Assembly (NCBI GenBank): GCA_016872775.1
Contig: VGZA01000015.1
Location: forward strand, 1 to 64,000
Reading direction: 5' to 3'
Source of the DNA: Planctomycetota bacterium
Lineage (GTDB): Bacteria; Planctomycetota; Planctomycetia; Pirellulales; Pirellulaceae
Length of the DNA stretch: 64,000 bases
Both the position numbers and the translations under genes were made by a program. The notes under the pieces were generated by a model. It saw nothing but the letters and a program-made list of their open reading frames with translations. It did no database searches and had not been told where the DNA came from. This document shows positions 20,370-33,328 of this stretch, piece by piece (positions within the stretch are counted from its first letter, which is position 1; the number at the start of each line of letters is the position of its first letter).

Positions 20370-23300
20370 CTATTTTCGCTCGTCGATGTTGCGGCGCTGC
20401 AGCTGATCGAGTTGGTCGTTCGCGTCCTTCAAGCTGAATTTGCACTGCGGAATGCGTCCGCGCAGTTCCTCGGCATCGTCCAGGCGTCGCAGGGGGTCCC
20501 GTGCAGCCTCCACTTCATCTTCCAGTGCCACCAGCCAGGCGGGGACATCGAGTCCGACGCCGGTCGGCCTGCGGGTCAGCGATTCGGCCTCATGTTCCAA
20601 CAGTTCGAAAACTGGGCGGGGGCCGTTCGCGGTGGCTTCGCGGATCGCCGGTTCCACCAGCGCCCGGATACGGTCGATCGCCATCGGTCGCACGAATCGC
20701 TCCGCAACCTGGTCGGCGATGGTGGGCATCCGCATGGAATATTTCTTCTGCAGCAACGACAGTTTTTCGCCGTAATGGTCCGCCTCGCTATTGATCCGAT
20801 CGGTAAGAGCCCGGCGCCACATTTTGGCGGCCGCATTCTGCTCGGCGCGAACGAGCACTTCATGGGCCCAGACCACCGGTTTCAGATTCCAGGCGACGCG
20901 ATCGTATCGGGTCCGCAAACGGAGAAAATCGAGTAGCGTGTAGATCAGTTCGCCTCGGTCCGATTGGGTGGTCGTGCTGTTGTAATCGCGATATTCGCCG
21001 TAGTTTTCGAAGATCGCTTCGAGCAGCAGGGTGAGGTGTTCGACGATATAGAGCCGCGAGGTACCCTGCTGGATGGCGGCGAGGAACGGTGCGGCGAATT
21101 CATCGTCACTCTCCTCGGCCTGATCCAGCCAGTTGTCGACACCCTGGTGCAGGATGGAGCGGATATTTCCCAGGTTCAGGAATCGCTGGGTGAACCGATC
21201 ACTGCCGAAACGCTGAATAAACTCCAGCATATGCTCCCAAGCCTGTTTGTCGTGGACTTTTTCCAGGACCGACAGACGCAACGTACGGCTATGGTTGAGC
21301 CAGCAGAGCAGCAGTGATTCGGTCAGTTTTTCCAGGCAAGCAACCAGCATGGACGCCGAGGTCTCCTCGCGAGCCCGACCGGTACCGTGGCCCCACTGCG
21401 AACTGGAGGCGACCAGCGACTCCACGATCGCCTTGTAGCCCCGTTTGAAAAGTTCGTCGAATTCCGTCACGGCGCCGTGGCCGACCGGGTGGTCGGTCTC
21501 CATGCGCCGGGAGACGTCGAGCAGTTCGCAGGTCTCGCGGATCAACCCCAGTCGCGGCAGAAAGGCCAGCAGGTCCTGGATCCCTCGCTGGCGCACGCGC
21601 GTGGCGACGATCACGCGCGGATGGCCGCCGCGACCCAGTGGTACATAGAGCAACGGTTTCGAGGCCAGCGATTTGATCAGGTTAGGCCAATACTCGCGAA
21701 CGCGGCCGCGGTCCCCTTTGAGGATGGCGGCCAGGACGGCGGTGATCTGCCGCTGATCTTGATCGTCCGCGCGCGATTCCTTCGGCGCTGCGTCCAGGGC
21801 CGCCGCCAGGATCCGCTCGGCGTCGGTAACTTCGACGGTGATCGATACGATCTGGTCGAGCAGCGATTCCTTGGTGGCACGGCGGTTATCGAATTCCAGC
21901 ATCGAGTCCATATCGGTGCGGGGCAACGGGATCTTATATCTTTGAATCGTGTCGAGCAGTTCGACAAGGCGTTCCCGGTTCACTTCCGCCTGCGCGCGCC
22001 AGCGTTCCATCGCATCCTGGCGTTCCTTGTCGGCTCGGGCGTCGCCGGTGGGGCTATCGGACCAGTATTGACAGGTCACGACCGATTTCCAGAGCCGTGC
22101 CAGGCATCCGATGAATGCGGCGCGATCGACCACCCGATCGGCTTCCATCGCCAGTTCGTCGTGCGAGCCGAGGTTACTTTCGAAAACGGCTCCCTCCATG
22201 CCGTCATCGGTCGTATCCCGGTAGACCATTTCCTCGTAGGCCGCGTTGAAGAGCTCGTCGCTGGCCGGCGCGTCCTCGTCGAGCGGATCCTGGCTTTCGT
22301 CGGCGTCGTCCTCTGCCGGGCGGTGGGAGTTCGAGCCCTCCCTGTTCTTCCGCCCCGCCTCACCCGACTCGTTCAATTGGAACTGCGGCACTTCCCAGTA
22401 CGATTCGGCATTCGCTTCGAAGAAGTCGAGCATTCTCCGCAGCATCGACGTCGGGTTCAGCCGCATTCGCTCGATTTCCACGGGAGGCAGATTGACCAGT
22501 CGCAGCAGCCAGTGCTCGGCCAATACGTGAAACGAGCTCTCGCCGACATGCAACGGGATTTTCTCGGCCTGGCTGAGCCAATGGACGAGCAGGGCGAGCG
22601 AGGCGACAAAGTCGTTTTTTTCCAGCAGTGCGTCGATGACGAGCGCGTAGGCGCGCGACGAATCGAACATTTCGGCGTACGGCGCCCAGAAACCGACATC
22701 GCCGGCGGCGGCGCCGCCCTTGTGCCAGAGGTTGAGCGCTTCCGCGACTTTTTCCGCCGCGCGGTAGGCGTCCAGGGAATCGATCGCTTCCACACAGATC
22801 ACTTCGTGCGCGGCGAAGCGGTGCCACCATTCCGCCGTGGAGCGAAATGCTCTCGCTACTTCGCGGCAGCGGTCTTTCTGGTCGCGCGCGGCGAATTCAC
22901 TCCAGACGCGGGCGTAGCCGTTACAGGTCTGTTCGATCACCCGTACCAGTTCGTCCGCGCGATGATCGTGGACGCTGTTTTCAAGAGCGGGAAAGAGGCT
23001 GAAATTCGCGTCGAAGCCCAGGATGTTCCGGGGATCAATCACCGCGCCGCATTCGATCCCGCGCTGCAGGAAGTCGATGATGCGGGGCAACAGGCTGTTC
23101 GCATGCTGCGGGTCGCCGCGGCGGATCGCCAGGTCGAGTTCGGTGAGCCAGCAGTCGATCTGGCAGAGCATCCGCGCCGAGGCGGTCGGCACGACGTTGA
23201 CCTGCCGCGTGGCGGCGGCGGCAAATCCCATTCGGGCGAAGATCCGGGCCAGATGCACATGTTCCAGCTGCGAAGCGCGGCGGCATGCCAGCTCCGCATT

Positions 23301-24377
23301 CAAATGTTGCCGCGCGGCGCCAAACGGCTGCTTGCGTTCCTTGCTTTCGCGGCGCAAACGGTCGGCATGCTTGCCCGGCATCCCCGCCAACAATCGCTCG
23401 TAAAACTCATCGCGGTAGACCGCGATCCGCGGAAGGAGCGTCGAAAGTGTGACGGAGGAACTGTGGCTGTCCGGTCCCGCGCCGCTCACGCCGGCGGCCA
23501 TCAAAATGGTCCCCGCCAGGACCGCCGCCGCTTCGAATTCCAGTTCTTCGCGAGAAAGTTCCGTCATCAATTCGACGCGCCTCATCAACGCTTCCAACGC
23601 GACTTCCTGTGCCACGTAGCGACGATAGAATCCCTTGTTGTCGATCACGTGCGGATCCCACTGACCAAAATGATAATTCGGCCGCTTGTTCGCCGGATGA
23701 TCGAAATCGTAGGCGCGCGGATCGACTGCCAGTTCGTCCAGCCGCGCCGGATCAAAGCAGGCCTCGCGCAGGATGTCGGGGTCGGTTGCTTCCAGGATTT
23801 CCAGGGCCCGTTGAATCACCGGTCGAGCCGGGCCGAAGACGACTCCGGCGCCGCGGATAAATAAGGGAACCGGCCGCACCGATTCGTGCGGGTAAGGTTC
23901 GACCTTCTGATTCTCGAGGGTGGCCACCGGCCGATGCCCGATGAAGTCGTTCAGCCGCTCGATCACCGCAGGCACAATCCGGGCCGGTTCGGTCCAGGGG
24001 CCGCCTTCGCGCAGAATTTGCTCGCAGACTCGTCCGACAAAAAAGGGATTGAATAGCCGCTCCGCCGTCTGGTGGAACAAAAGATCCCGGTGAAAGTCCA
24101 AATAGCCTGGGAGCACGTGCCGTTCCAACAACTCGATCACCGCACCCGCCTGACCGTCGTCCGCTTCATGCGATTTCCGGGTGGGGATCTTTTCCCGCAA
24201 GGCGGCGAGCACAACCCCGTACAGGGGCTCCCCCCCGGAGTAGTGGGAGCACGATTCCCAGCATGTATTGAGCGCCGCATGGAACTGCGGGTCGCTGGCT
24301 CCGGAAGAAAAATTCAGGTAGCCGAGCACTTGTTCGAGGGCTTGCGCGCCCTTTCGGTCAAGTCCTCGTGCCGCCAT
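20370..24377 (-). CDS. Giant protein of unknown function (1335 residues)
   Basis: I do not recognise any domain in this 1335-residue protein. It is soluble (no signal peptide, no membrane segment) and mostly helical, with an acidic, poorly structured linker at about residues 670-710 (DDADESQDPLDEDAPASDE) dividing it into two parts. The N-terminal half is rich in conserved-looking Trp, His and Cys (LNTCWESCSHYSGGE, GQWDPHVIDNKGFYRRYVAQ). The C-terminal half has long amphipathic helices. ATG 24377 is the first start; the next gene upstream is divergent after 356 bases. The SDR gene follows on the same strand. Confidence 0.8.
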   Translation of the reverse strand: MAARGLDRKGAQALEQVLGYLNFSSGASDPQFHAALNTCWESCSHYSGGEPLYGVVLAALREKIPTRKSHEADDGQAGAVIELLERHVLPGYLDFHRDLLFHQTAERLFNPFFVGRVCEQILREGGPWTEPARIVPAVIERLNDFIGHRPVATLENQKVEPYPHESVRPVPLFIRGAGVVFGPARPVIQRALEILEATDPDILREACFDPARLDELAVDPRAYDFDHPANKRPNYHFGQWDPHVIDNKGFYRRYVAQEVALEALMRRVELMTELSREELEFEAAAVLAGTILMAAGVSGAGPDSHSSSVTLSTLLPRIAVYRDEFYERLLAGMPGKHADRLRRESKERKQPFGAARQHLNAELACRRASQLEHVHLARIFARMGFAAAATRQVNVVPTASARMLCQIDCWLTELDLAIRRGDPQHANSLLPRIIDFLQRGIECGAVIDPRNILGFDANFSLFPALENSVHDHRADELVRVIEQTCNGYARVWSEFAARDQKDRCREVARAFRSTAEWWHRFAAHEVICVEAIDSLDAYRAAEKVAEALNLWHKGGAAAGDVGFWAPYAEMFDSSRAYALVIDALLEKNDFVASLALLVHWLSQAEKIPLHVGESSFHVLAEHWLLRLVNLPPVEIERMRLNPTSMLRRMLDFFEANAESYWEVPQFQLNESGEAGRKNREGSNSHRPAEDDADESQDPLDEDAPASDELFNAAYEEMVYRDTTDDGMEGAVFESNLGSHDELAMEADRVVDRAAFIGCLARLWKSVVTCQYWSDSPTGDARADKERQDAMERWRAQAEVNRERLVELLDTIQRYKIPLPRTDMDSMLEFDNRRATKESLLDQIVSITVEVTDAERILAAALDAAPKESRADDQDQRQITAVLAAILKGDRGRVREYWPNLIKSLASKPLLYVPLGRGGHPRVIVATRVRQRGIQDLLAFLPRLGLIRETCELLDVSRRMETDHPVGHGAVTEFDELFKRGYKAIVESLVASSSQWGHGTGRAREETSASMLVACLEKLTESLLLCWLNHSRTLRLSVLEKVHDKQAWEHMLEFIQRFGSDRFTQRFLNLGNIRSILHQGVDNWLDQAEESDDEFAAPFLAAIQQGTSRLYIVEHLTLLLEAIFENYGEYRDYNSTTTQSDRGELIYTLLDFLRLRTRYDRVAWNLKPVVWAHEVLVRAEQNAAAKMWRRALTDRINSEADHYGEKLSLLQKKYSMRMPTIADQVAERFVRPMAIDRIRALVEPAIREATANGPRPVFELLEHEAESLTRRPTGVGLDVPAWLVALEDEVEAARDPLRRLDDAEELRGRIPQCKFSLKDANDQLDQLQRRNIDERK

Positions 24378-28753: not shown

Positions 28754-30997
28754 TCAGGCGTTGGCGCGGCGGCCTCGTTCGCGCAGCTGGGCGATTTTCT
28801 GTTCCAGCGCTTGGCGGGGACAGCAGCCGTTGTTGTGGGCCTCGAGCATCGAAAGCATGATCGACGGGTAGGTGTCGAAGATCGACAGTCCGCCGCATTC
28901 GGCGGCCCAGAAGCGAGCCAATTCCCGTGACGGCGGCCCTTTTTCCGGGTCGTAAGCTTCGGGAACCACCGATACCAGCGCCAGTCGGCCGGCGATGGCT
29001 CCGGCGGCCGTTCGAGAAGCGGGATCGATGAGTTCGCCGACGTTCCCCGGCAGGATCGATTTTCCCGGTGTCATCTTGATCGGCGGCTGCTGGCCGCGCA
29101 ACACGCGGCGATGGCCGGGTACCTTGACGCGATCCCGTCCACGCCCCTTTTTCAGACGCCGGGAATCATCCTGGTAGGCCTTGTGGCTCATCAGCGCGTG
29201 CCCGTTAATCCAGGCGAAACCATCTTCGGGAAGCTCCTGGCCATGGTCCAACGCGACGAAAGGCGTGGCACTCAAGTTCCCGTTCGCGAACTGCTGCAGC
29301 GTGACCAGCATGCGATCCTTGGGACTTTGCCGGCCCCGTCCGTGCGCCAACCGGCCAATCAGATGGTAGAGCACATCCGGAGAAACCCGTGTCGCGACGA
29401 TCAGGTGCCGCAGGCTGAGCAGGTCGAGCGATTCTTTGACGACCGAAGCCGACGACACCAGTACATGGGGGCCATCGCCCGAAGTATCGAACCAGATCTG
29501 CAGCGCCTCCCGATCCTCCTCGTCGCCGTGAAATGGCCGAACGGCGGCGGAAGGGTGCAGTTTTTCATAAGCCTGCCGCAGCCGTTCGACATACAGGTCG
29601 ACGAGCCGCGCGTGGACGACGACCAGCGTGTTCACGTGGAACGGTTGGGGCAGTCCCAGCGCCTTGAAGCTATCGAGCGGCTGGGCGTAGAAGTGCATCA
29701 GTTGGCGCAGTGCTTCCTCGGTTTCGGCCGGGTAGTGCAGATCTTCGGCGGAGGGGAACAACCGCACGCCCAGATCGGGGAGGATTCCGCGCCGGATCGA
29801 CTCCGGGAAACTATGCGCCGGCGATCGGCGGTCCCACGACTTACCGTACCATTGCGACCCGGCGGCAAAGACCAGCGGTGAGTGTTCGGCGCCGGCCGCT
29901 ACGACCGGCTCCTGGAAGGCGATCGGTTGCCTTCGCTGGGCCTCGTCGCAGAGCACGACGCGAATATGCCGGTGCAATTCCTGTTGAAAGCGACCGATCT
30001 GTTGAGCGCTGGTGAAAACCGACGCGGGTTCCAGCACGACGCGTGCGTCGGCGCGGGAACAATTGGCGACGCCGATACCGTCGCGCGTGAACAACGGGTA
30101 GTCGTGCGGGATTGCGAACGCCGCGTCGCCCGTATGCGAAACCAGCCGCTGCGCTTCCTCCGGGATCGGAGGAAAGGTGAGTATTTCCACGGATCCGAAC
30201 GGGCCGCGCACCAAGGTTGCCATCGAAGCGAGTACCTGCAGGACGTTTTCCAGCATCGGAGCCTCCGATGCATCGATCGTCGCTTTGCATGACTGCAGGT
30301 GGCAGGACACCAGTTCGCGTGCCTGTTCGAGGGTGGCGGGCCGTTGTGCGAACAGGCGTTGGAACGCGGCTTTGGGAAAATACTTCTTCATGAACGGGCC
30401 GTCGATGCGACAGAGCGCCTGGCGCCGACGTTGGATGTCGCGTTCGTTCGGAAGGTAGGGCGGCGCCCGCAGTATGCGGCGGCGTCCCATGCCTTTGCCG
30501 CGAACCTTGTCCGACAGGTGATACGGCTTCGCCGTGCAGTAGGCGATCTTGCCGGCCATTCGTCCCCGCATCTGCAGGCGGATGCACGCCTGCATCACCA
30601 CGCCAAGCGTGAGCGTCTTGCCTGTCCCCGGCGCGCCCTGGATGAAGAACGATTTTGGCGATTTCTGGCCGTCGGTGATCGAGGCCGCCAGCCAGATCAG
30701 ATGGGCAAACTGGTGATCGCGCAGCGTTTTCTCGTTGACGCGACGCTTGCCAAGTTGCAAATCCTGCAAAACGGTCCAAAGCTCCACGGCAAGCTGCCGG
30801 TGAAACTCGGGAGCGTTCGCAAACCGCAGATTGACGAATTCCCGAGCCGATTCGGGCGGATAGATGCTGTCCGGATTCTCGCCCGGCGGAAACACCTTGG
30901 TCATGACGGGTATCAGCTTGTGATACAGCGAGGCAAAGGCGGGAGCCGGCTCACGGCTGCTGCCCGATCCGTTCATGATGGTGATCGCAGGCCGCAC
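28754..30997 (-). CDS. SF2 helicase-like ATPase, divergent family
   Basis: 747 residues from GTG 30997, supported by AAGGAAG (31006-31012 on the plus-strand numbering) 8 bases upstream; ATG 30973 is the alternative. ATPase motifs: a Q-motif-like LRDHQFAHLIWLA (~92-104), Walker A GAPGTGKT (121-128), motif II DEAQ (351-354), FAAGSQW near motif III (~377-383), motif V-like VSSASVVKESLDLLSLRH (~514-531) and motif VI-like LIGRLAHGRGR (~546-556). About 220 residues separate motifs I and II, a large insertion. I cannot assign it to a known helicase clan. It is divergent from the multi-HTH gene, with 168 bases between starts, so a shared function is plausible. Confidence 0.75.
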   Translation of the reverse strand: MRPAITIMNGSGSSREPAPAFASLYHKLIPVMTKVFPPGENPDSIYPPESAREFVNLRFANAPEFHRQLAVELWTVLQDLQLGKRRVNEKTLRDHQFAHLIWLAASITDGQKSPKSFFIQGAPGTGKTLTLGVVMQACIRLQMRGRMAGKIAYCTAKPYHLSDKVRGKGMGRRRILRAPPYLPNERDIQRRRQALCRIDGPFMKKYFPKAAFQRLFAQRPATLEQARELVSCHLQSCKATIDASEAPMLENVLQVLASMATLVRGPFGSVEILTFPPIPEEAQRLVSHTGDAAFAIPHDYPLFTRDGIGVANCSRADARVVLEPASVFTSAQQIGRFQQELHRHIRVVLCDEAQRRQPIAFQEPVVAAGAEHSPLVFAAGSQWYGKSWDRRSPAHSFPESIRRGILPDLGVRLFPSAEDLHYPAETEEALRQLMHFYAQPLDSFKALGLPQPFHVNTLVVVHARLVDLYVERLRQAYEKLHPSAAVRPFHGDEEDREALQIWFDTSGDGPHVLVSSASVVKESLDLLSLRHLIVATRVSPDVLYHLIGRLAHGRGRQSPKDRMLVTLQQFANGNLSATPFVALDHGQELPEDGFAWINGHALMSHKAYQDDSRRLKKGRGRDRVKVPGHRRVLRGQQPPIKMTPGKSILPGNVGELIDPASRTAAGAIAGRLALVSVVPEAYDPEKGPPSRELARFWAAECGGLSIFDTYPSIMLSMLEAHNNGCCPRQALEQKIAQLRERGRRANA

Positions 30998-31165
30998 GGT
31001 CGGGGCTTCCTTCGGCTGAAGTCGACGTTCGGTGGGATACTTTCAAGGCGGGGCTCGACGAAAAACGTCGCTGAATGGACCGCTGTCGTCGGTTCGATTA
31101 TCATACTATCCCGCCCTAGCAGAATCCACCCCTGCCCCCCTTGCCCTCCCCAGGTAACTTCCGTG
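30998..31165. promoter_or_regulatory. Divergent promoter region between helicase-like and multi-HTH genes
   Basis: These 168 bases separate the two start codons and must hold both promoters. A sequence rich in alternating A/T (GATTATCATACTAT, about 31098-31111) is the only AT-rich patch and a candidate -10 zone for either direction. The neighbouring HTH protein is an obvious candidate autoregulator here; no clear palindrome is visible. Confidence 0.4.
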
Positions 31166-33328
31166 ATGTCTCCGGCTCGCATCGATACCGTCGAGTTGTC
31201 CACGCGCGGCGTTGCGGGGCATGCCTTACGCCGCGTCCAGAAGTTGAACAATACCTTGCGTGGCACCCGGCAACTGGTTGCTAAATCGGGAGAGCAACCG
31301 GCGCAGTCGATCGCACTGCTGCTGGCGCAGACGCGCGTGCTGGTGCTGAAGATGGGCAGGCGGGAATTCGGCAACGCCGCCGGCATGCACTTCCACGCCG
31401 TGAAGAACGTGGAGACGCCCGGTTCCCATCCGCAACATGAGTCGTTCTCGCGCGTTTATCGAACGTGGTCCCGAATCGCCAGGTCGGAAAAAGGACCGTT
31501 TCTGCCCGTGCGGGGACAGGTGGCGAAGGCCTGCGACAAACTGCTGGAGTTGCTCGTCCCGGAAAAGGACGAGCACGGCAGATCGCTGCGCGCCACAATC
31601 GACGGACTGTACCGCAAATGGATGTATCAGTCCGGGCAAGAGGCGTTTGAAGCGGCGTCGAAGCTCGCGAATCCTCTCCACGTTCCCTTGACCTACGGCG
31701 CGCTCTGGCAGAGGCGCGAAGTCGGCATGGTGCCGGACTTTGACGAGGTACGTTCGATCGGCACTCGATTGCGACTTGATCTGGGCGAGGCGGCGGCGAT
31801 CTGGGAAGGGTGCAAAACCCGCCAGCTCCTGGAACGCGGACTGCCGCCTCCCTTGGTCCGGTTGATCGTCGCCATGCAACTGCAATGTCCCGGCCTGCGC
31901 ATGACCGCCGCCTCGGTCCGGGAGCACCTGCGCGTCAGCGAAAAGACGGCCCAAGCGATCAACAACGGTCAGCTGGTGAAATTCAAGGATATTCGCAACG
32001 CGGTGCAATCGATACTCGACACCCGGAGTGCGGCGGCACTGGAGAAGGACTGGCAGGCGGCCTGGGAGCGCAACCGTTCTCAGGAGGACTTTGGAACGGC
32101 GTTACCACGTATCTGTGCGGAGAATGGCTGGAGCAATCACACGCTGGCGGTATTGCTGCGCATTCGACCGCCCGAGGAGCGCGGAATTGCGAGTTCGGCG
32201 CGAGGAAAGGCACGGCTACGCGCCGAGTCGTATCGTCCTTCGGCGGAGATCCGCAGGATGTACCAGGAAAAGTGCTTTTCCGGCCAGGCGCCCGCGAAAG
32301 CGGTGATCGACATGGTGGCACTGGAAGGGAAGCGGGAAGCGAGCGGCGAGAACCAGCGCGACTACCTGACGCGGCTGTTCCTGGAGGGTGTCGAGCGGCA
32401 ACTTTCCCGCAAAGGCACCGCCGCGCACGGTTCGCCGTTGCGCTGGCATCGTATCCTGTGCGGTGTCACGCCGGGACAACTGGCGAACCTGTCGGGGATC
32501 CCCAAGGATCATCTGCTGCTGGTCGAACGGGGCAATCGAAAAGTAAACGCCGCGGAAATAAAACGCTTGTTGAAATTGATCGAGTCGTTTCCGGCGGAAA
32601 AGGTGAAACAGGCTCGGGCCCGATTGACGGAATTGAATTCCCCGCCGGAAAATGCTCGACAAGCCGTGGAACGGTTGCGAGATCGTCACGGCGGTTATAA
32701 CCCGCTTTGCCGGTTGTTGAATGATGACCCCGAGCGGCAGGTGAGCTTCACTCCGGTACGACTGAAACGTATCGCGCGCGGGGCCGAAGTCCCCCCCTTG
32801 CCAATACTGGAACGGATGCTGACCCGCGGCGGCAGTCAGCTGGTTCCCGCGCTGATCGACGACTGGTATCAGAGAGTGCCGGATTACCTGCGGAACCATC
32901 CGAAACTCCGCTGGAAACACCCACTGGTGCGCGGCTTTGGCGTCGTCGTGTTCGAGAAATGGCTGAGCTTGCGGCATTTCTGGGAAGACCAGTTCCGCGA
33001 CGATTTCAGCTATTCGATTATCACTCGCAATTTTCAGCAACTGAATGGCAACGGCGCCGATTACCATTGGGCGACGGTCAGCCGGTACCTGAATGCGGCG
33101 GGGCTCGGCTCCACCGATCCCCGGCGAGCCTTCCTGCAGCAGTTGTTCGAGCGCCGCGACGAAATCACAACCGCCCTCCAGGCGAATCAGCGATCCAAAA
33201 TCGCCGGCGTCGTCGCGGAAGTTTTGCGGCAGTGGCGCAAGGGGGAGCGATCGGCGGGCCGCGATCCGCTGACGACCGAACGGATACTCGGGTTGACCGC
33301 GGAAGAACGCAACGGAGCCAGTAAATGA
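31166..33328 (+). CDS. Large protein with several degenerate XRE-type helix-turn-helix modules
   Basis: 720 residues from ATG 31166 (an adjacent in-frame GTG lies at 31163). I see at least four segments with the XRE/Cro pattern of a recognition helix followed by a turn and a last helix: ~57-95 (MGRREFGNAAGMHFHAVKNV), ~245-284 (ASVREHLRVSEKTAQAINNG), ~426-472 (GQLANLSGIPKDHLLLVERG) and ~515-553 (FTPVRLKRIARGAEVPPLPI). Weaker ones are at ~174-205 and ~615-660. The rest is helical and strongly basic. No enzyme motif, signal or membrane segment is present. Most XRE proteins have one such domain, so an array is unusual. It is divergent from the helicase-like gene. Function unknown; DNA binding is inferred. 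Confidence 0.72.
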   Translation: MSPARIDTVELSTRGVAGHALRRVQKLNNTLRGTRQLVAKSGEQPAQSIALLLAQTRVLVLKMGRREFGNAAGMHFHAVKNVETPGSHPQHESFSRVYRTWSRIARSEKGPFLPVRGQVAKACDKLLELLVPEKDEHGRSLRATIDGLYRKWMYQSGQEAFEAASKLANPLHVPLTYGALWQRREVGMVPDFDEVRSIGTRLRLDLGEAAAIWEGCKTRQLLERGLPPPLVRLIVAMQLQCPGLRMTAASVREHLRVSEKTAQAINNGQLVKFKDIRNAVQSILDTRSAAALEKDWQAAWERNRSQEDFGTALPRICAENGWSNHTLAVLLRIRPPEERGIASSARGKARLRAESYRPSAEIRRMYQEKCFSGQAPAKAVIDMVALEGKREASGENQRDYLTRLFLEGVERQLSRKGTAAHGSPLRWHRILCGVTPGQLANLSGIPKDHLLLVERGNRKVNAAEIKRLLKLIESFPAEKVKQARARLTELNSPPENARQAVERLRDRHGGYNPLCRLLNDDPERQVSFTPVRLKRIARGAEVPPLPILERMLTRGGSQLVPALIDDWYQRVPDYLRNHPKLRWKHPLVRGFGVVVFEKWLSLRHFWEDQFRDDFSYSIITRNFQQLNGNGADYHWATVSRYLNAAGLGSTDPRRAFLQQLFERRDEITTALQANQRSKIAGVVAEVLRQWRKGERSAGRDPLTTERILGLTAEERNGASK

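Follow-up and report, generated by a model that had tools for sequence, protein, structure and literature searches.

SF2 helicases and translocases (DEAD/DEAH, SNF2, Mfd, and ResIII) are built around sequence blocks I, Ia, II, and IV–VI, which follow one another in that order, and the XRE-type regulators, such as restriction controller proteins, ClgR, and SinR, are known for their helix-turn-helix (HTH). Helicase-like motors also occur in compact mobile units, including Helitrons, in which an HUH nuclease and an SF1 helicase are joined in one protein. Defence modules, too, are often patchy in distribution, horizontally transferred, motor-bearing, and under purifying selection. One published account (PMC7159879) places SF2 helicases and HTH domains among the components of larger conflict systems. 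Our literature search, whose scope ended short of bioRxiv and most subscription journals, returned nothing that was plainly on a pair of genes like the one reported here.

The pair lies in a 64,000-nucleotide stretch of planctomycete DNA (hereafter, the window) and consists of two genes, A and B (Table 1), both of which are intact. The initial annotation had described them as a 747-residue SF2-type ATPase standing head-to-head with a 720-residue protein, and had put them forward as a candidate undescribed two-gene system. This proposal is supported as far as the analysis reaches. The arrangement is head-to-head in all eight distinct elements that we found, so the separation of the homologues in other genomes, which had been named as grounds for refutation, was not seen; purifying selection acts on both genes, as judged from their substitution rates; and each whole protein, on the basis of its sequence, appears to fall outside every family in Pfam, NCBIfam, PHROGs, and PADLOC. 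Compared with SF2 helicases, A has the same block order, but its motifs I and II are set about 220 residues apart and its C-terminal part is uncatalogued. B has one HTH like that of the XRE-type regulators, at residues 418-474, but the rest of the protein, about 660 residues, belongs to no known family. The likeness to Helitrons and other HUH/helicase elements, which lies in the helicase-like motor and in the compactness of the mobile unit, is a functional analogy only, since here there are two genes, an SF2-type motor, and no recognized HUH domain (no HUH family in Pfam at E ≤ 10). With helicase-containing anti-phage systems, the pair shares a compact, patchy, and horizontally moving character and a motor ATPase; however, the fit to PADLOC (a library dating from 2023) is in fragments only, and no effector was recognized. 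We consider the make-up of the pair to be new in kind, although it would count as a variant of a familiar type if a role in defence were proven.

Table 1. Coordinates of the two genes and their features in the window
Feature	Position	Strand	Remarks
Gene A	28754..30997	-	747 aa; SF2-type ATPase/helicase-like, by motif order; uncatalogued family, none above cut-off
Walker A GAPGTGKT, A residues 121-128	30614..30637	-	Invariant in 6/6 sequences of alignment A1
Motif II DEAQ, A residues 351-354	29936..29947	-	Invariant in 6/6 sequences of A1
Motif VI-like IGRLAHGR, A residues 547-554	29336..29359	-	Invariant in 6/6 sequences of A1
Intergenic gap	30998..31165	.	168 bp between start codons; likely shared divergent promoter
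CCCCGCC block	31047..31053	-	Possible operator
TATCAT (+) / TATGAT (-) core	31099..31105	.	Possible -10 in both directions
Gene B	31166..33328	+	720 aa from ATG at 31166; mostly helical; one sure XRE-type HTH
Conserved GMHFHAVKN.ETPG.HPQHES..R.YR.W, B residues 73-101	31382..31468	+	One of the two best-conserved stretches of B; XRE-like by eye only
Possible second HTH, B residues 227-306	31844..32083	+	Weak; one structure row
XRE-type HTH, B residues 418-474	32417..32587	+	HTH_31; best Z 8.8

Gene A starts with GTG, a start codon kept in all six distinct relatives for which the start is printed. The annotation's view of A as an SF2-type ATPase is supported by alignment A1 (the window and five relatives, six sequences), in which GAPGTGKT, DEAQ, and GRLAHGR (residues 548-554) do not vary, and the insertion of some 220 residues that it saw between motifs I and II agrees with the spacing we measured. 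Across seven sequences, conservation in A is highest in the 24-residue stretches 119-142, 154-177, 342-365, 395-418, 485-508, 509-532, and 546-569, which we read, naming them by eye, as motifs I, Ia, II, an unnamed block, and motifs IV, V, and VI, respectively. A Walker A motif, a DExx motif, a motif V-like block, and an arginine-rich motif VI, the features by which SF2 proteins are recognized, are present in this order. Support for A as an SF2-type motor comes from this motif order and, more weakly, from RecA2-like structure matches, and its predicted activity, from knowledge of the family, is that of an ATP-driven SF2 translocase or helicase.

No Pfam family exceeded its own cut-off in A. 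The best match was the Schlafen group 3 helicase domain, PF09848, which at 23.2 bits fell under the cut-off of 24 and covered only the P-loop (24 residues of a 354-position model), and the best SF2 family was ResIII (E 0.0063), again over the P-loop and under its cut-off. NCBIfam and PHROGs gave weak fragments only (best E 0.0032 and 0.0044, respectively), as did PADLOC, where AbiO (5.9e-4, residues 108-131), mad8 (0.0073), and Nhi (0.0085) were all sub-threshold. The sole match of the A profile among PDB sequences, to Helraiser over the P-loop, was not significant (E 1). The structure prediction called for in the annotation gave a poor AlphaFold model of A, built from six sequences (pLDDT 42), for which Foldseek found no match at E ≤ 0.001. 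In a structure comparison covering the families in the VIA-align lists, residues 429-585 of this poor model, where the second of the two RecA-like domains expected of an SF2 protein would lie, aligned at Z 5.2-5.7 with RecA2 domains, among them those of DDX proteins, ALC1, and Mfd; the top rows were a phage terminase and NAT10, both at Z 6.3, and none reached Z 8.

The 720-residue B protein, which has an upstream extension in the form of a 1009-aa ORF, had been thought to comprise an array of four to six degenerate XRE-like HTH modules. One module is sure: HTH_31 of Pfam was found at residues 425-471 (E 2.6e-8; 34.5 bits, the cut-off being 27), and structure comparison supports an HTH at 418-474. 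A second is weak, as residues 227-306 matched the HigA antitoxin (3trb_B) with a Z of 6.2 and an rmsd of 3.1 over 76 residues, a level that, according to the tool, may reflect nothing more than a common arrangement. The remainder of the array mostly found no support. When segments 1-182, 179-411, and 479-720 were each scanned alone, no Pfam family appeared at E ≤ 10, and a profile self-comparison (shallow, with Neff 1.65) gave no off-diagonal match indicative of an internal repeat (best P 0.63). The suggested action on repeated DNA, which had been derived from the array, is likewise unsupported. The protein may nevertheless contain more degenerate HTHs, given the mediocre quality of its model (mean pLDDT 59). 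The model is almost wholly helical, and Foldseek found no match to it at E ≤ 0.001. Elsewhere, the best PDB sequence was C.BclI (0.079), NCBIfam gave nothing, the best E in PHROGs was 0.12, and PADLOC produced fragments of HTH_VI (0.005) and Control_protein (0.01). From knowledge of such families, we predict that B is a DNA-binding protein and that it probably regulates the promoter which it shares with A.

The most conserved stretches of B are residues 356-379, 73-96, 49-72, and 176-199. The near-invariant, His/Glu-rich segment at 73-101 (in which H75, H77, E83, H88, H91, E92, and Y98 are invariant) is among its most conserved parts, and the recognized HTH is not. Two short strings in B were considered by eye as possible marks of a strand-cutting or recombining enzyme, and neither gained support. 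The HFH string at 75-77, as an HUH nuclease, looks by eye like an XRE helix, matches no HUH family in Pfam at E ≤ 10, and lies where confidence in the model is low; the string TTVSRY was considered by eye as part of a tyrosine recombinase, and no such family was found in Pfam at E ≤ 10.

The gap between A and B is about 130-170 bp across the elements, the start codon of B being uncertain in some relatives. All eight gaps contain TATRAT, and the start of CCCGCC lies 50 bp from that of TATRAT in seven of them and 53 bp from it in the window; a shared divergent promoter together with a regulator site would explain this conservation. The window also has a promoter-like site for B (TGGACC-17-TATCAT), which is no evidence by itself, as two such sites were present against 0.7 expected. 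The two genes diverge in step, with dS for A and B of 0.317 and 0.315 (C57/C271), 0.85 and 0.81 (L006/L007), and 0.69 and 0.65 (C232/G016). Where it was defined, dN/dS was 0.06-0.20 for both genes (4 of 42 comparisons were undefined, and many were near saturation). The G+C content is 60-64% in the pair and in its surroundings alike.

The eight elements come from seven genomes, that of the window included, with only one or two copies per genome. Besides the window, they are G016 (contig L004), C232 (L003) and C271 (L005) of genome G488, C57 of genome G487, L006, L007, and L008, in the last of which gene A is cut by the end of the contig. Gene A was matched in 2 of 60 near relatives, counting the window genome, and gene B in the same two; gene A occurs in 4 of 241 genomes of the family and in 2 of 396 of the order. 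A scan of genome contigs for gene A with exact peptide patterns, which reach close relatives only, returned six loci. When 392 genomes were searched for gene A at E ≤ 1, 35 had matches, and those listed were short fragments except for the window's own gene, the best of the others having an E of 0.0067. Besides the window genome, the search for gene B in 392 genomes of the phylum yielded a single HTH fragment (E 7.8e-4). This fragment, from a distant planctomycete (G424, locus L012), is covered by the B profile at residues 416-470 only, and is likely an ordinary XRE domain. No relatives were found in viral contigs with exact peptide patterns (which distant relatives can escape), nor in the plasmid and phage collections searched.

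The most telling feature of the pair, which was absent from the initial annotation, is that it appears to move horizontally as a tightly bordered unit. In an all-against-all blastn of the eight elements and their available flanks (E ≤ 1e-10), only the pair aligned between loci. On the side of B, similarity stopped 9-25 nt past the stop codon in all six pairs formed by C57, C271, G016, and L008; any pair that included C232, L006, L007, or the window aligned only as far as a point inside B, short of this border. On the side of A, two further contigs of G487 (C7 and C230) start inside the end of the gene, share 167 bp at 98.2% identity, and diverge 53 nt past the stop codon, and C57, on which the pair is complete, finishes with these same first 55 bases. 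There are therefore at least two A-ends at different sites, in G487 or in two strains of it; one B-end was seen there. From about 19 nt past the stop of B to 53 nt past the stop of A, the unit in G487 would span about 4.6 kb. At the C271 locus of G488, a region homologous to a glycosidase-like gene on contig C194 of G487 (596 aa) begins about 19 nt beyond the stop of B and lacks about the first 424 residues; beyond the stop of A, only 186 bp are available, in which we did not see the glycosidase continue by eye, and a simple insertion is one possible reading. Among the more distant copies, the DNA immediately past A shows no conservation.

Divergence tells the same way. G487 and G488 belong to one genus, and their closest elements (C57 and C271) are 90% identical, with a dS of 0.32, whereas the dS of host ORFs between the two genomes was 0.73-1.76 in 10 of 10 compared (median identity 0.79). 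These ORFs came from two syntenic regions (open frames of at least 150 codons; tblastn at E ≤ 1e-30 with at least 100 aligned residues), those without a tblastn match being left out of the 10. The element would thus be younger in these hosts than the split between them. Moreover, the two elements of G488 (C232 and C271) are only 81% identical to each other. The arguments from dS and from the borders draw on copies located on contigs of 5.0-9.4 kb from metagenome-assembled genomes (MAGs), for which mis-binning is possible: the pair-bearing contigs C57, C271, and C232 are 5.0, 5.8, and 6.6 kb, in MAGs with an estimated contamination of 3-5%, and mis-binned contigs would undo both the dS argument and that from the two elements of G488. 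The safer copies are those of the window (on a 107.6-kb contig), G016 (31.4 kb), and L007 (29.5 kb). Location at different places, tight borders, and a divergence below that of the hosts, as expected of a mobile unit, are all seen, in a picture that depends in part on the binning of MAGs.

The usual traces of transposition were not detected. End-to-end comparison of six elements revealed no inverted repeats common to the copies; in two of the six, the end-to-end match was reached by at most 7 of 200 shuffles, but its letters differ between them. We found no target duplication, and no empty site in the three genomes of the genus of G487; likewise, the WD40 gene that flanks the pair in the window was not found near relatives of the carbon-nitrogen hydrolase (16 loci with flanks of about 1.5 kb), and no empty site was found there. 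Scans of Pfam, NCBIfam, and PHROGs at E ≤ 10 detected no DDE, serine, or tyrosine recombinase, though a very divergent one could escape them, and no nuclease domain was recognized in the pair with these libraries or PADLOC.

Repeats and possible transposase remnants lie close to some copies. In G487, a repeat with TTTGACA...TGTCA units (L089:1-75 and the last 55 bases of L090, both on C19; L020:1-55) occurs at both ends of the 32-kb contig C19 and beside the pair, and its copies are possibly the ends of another mobile element. A palindromic repeat adjoins the A-end in C230 (L021, about 168-280); it recurs, at 73-97% identity, at about a dozen further sites across G487 and G488 and looks like a MITE-type repeat family. 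In the flank of the C232 copy (L003:1-1270), there are by eye apparent fragments of an IS110-like transposase gene.

In the window, the neighbours on the side of A are DUF1501 and WD40 proteins and those on the side of B are a carbon-nitrogen hydrolase and a pseudouridine synthase, with PFK, a shikimate dehydrogenase, and a potassium transporter further out. A DUF1501 gene is near both the pair in the window and that in L007, but on opposite sides, and such genes are numerous in planctomycetes. The statement that neither neighbour is a defence gene is upheld, none being present among the window neighbours scanned, and the idea that the pair might lie near such genes finds no backing in the window. 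Three genes from the pair there is a large orphan, a 1335-aa ORF at 20370-24377 (-) for which Pfam, PADLOC, NCBIfam, and PHROGs all gave nothing at E ≤ 10.

The explanation that we favour, to which we assign a probability of roughly 45%, is that A and B are the whole of a compact (~4.6 kb), horizontally mobile unit that works on DNA and perhaps moves itself. In such a unit, B would mark a DNA site, either the ends of the unit or a target, and A would be recruited to this site, where it would unwind or remodel the DNA. This work may serve the movement or copying of the unit itself, and strands would be cut by an unrecognized site of A or B, or by a host enzyme. We prefer movement of the unit to action on foreign DNA, as the two genes seem to make up the mobile unit by themselves. 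The stricter proposal, in which an SF2 motor and a large helical DNA-binder form the entire machinery of a self-moving element that has no DDE, HUH, serine, or tyrosine recombinase and whose cutting site is in an unrecognized domain, strikes us as rather unlikely. The His/Glu-rich residues 73-101 of B would be an example of a candidate cutting domain, although they are more like an XRE recognition helix.

The main rival, which we regard as a less probable but serious reading, is a roaming defence or conflict module, in which B senses or binds invader DNA or represses the pair, A translocates on the invader, an unrecognized effector acts, and other elements spread the genes because they are useful. 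Its appeal lies in how patchily the pair is distributed (4 of 241 genomes in the family and 2 of 60 near relatives, including that of the window), together with horizontal transfer, the helicase-like motor, and purifying selection. However, what PADLOC recognized was confined to P-loop or HTH fragments, all below threshold, with AbiO the best; no effector domain came to light; no defence genes were present among the scanned neighbours in the window or noticed by eye in the flanks of relatives that we inspected; and the borders are tighter than would be expected of carried cargo.

Improbable, in our view, is that the pair is passive cargo of a neighbouring transposon or of illegitimate recombination, with a function unrelated to either mobility or defence. 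The lack of a recombinase in the pair is in keeping with this, as is the start of C57 in the repeat found at both ends of C19, which resembles the end of another element; yet the outer ends of different copies have no sequence in common, and in the closest relatives the common DNA reaches no more than tens of bases past either gene. Least probable of all is long residence in the chromosome, with vertical inheritance and frequent loss, of a pair that serves DNA repair, replication, or gene regulation. The G+C content equal to that of the surroundings, the near-saturated dS between the window copy and the others, and the low dN/dS would agree with this reading, but it is at odds with an element dS well below that of the hosts in G487 and G488, the different neighbours at each locus, the dissimilar copies within G488, and the two A-ends in G487.

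With two genes, one shared promoter, and a length of about 4.6 kb, the unit is small enough to be directly testable. If it were a defence module instead, two unrecognized protein families would join the anti-phage repertoire. If, as we favour, the pair is a mobile unit, and if it moves itself, it would represent a class of mobile elements that lacks every known recombinase, in Planctomycetota, a phylum whose mobile elements have been little studied.
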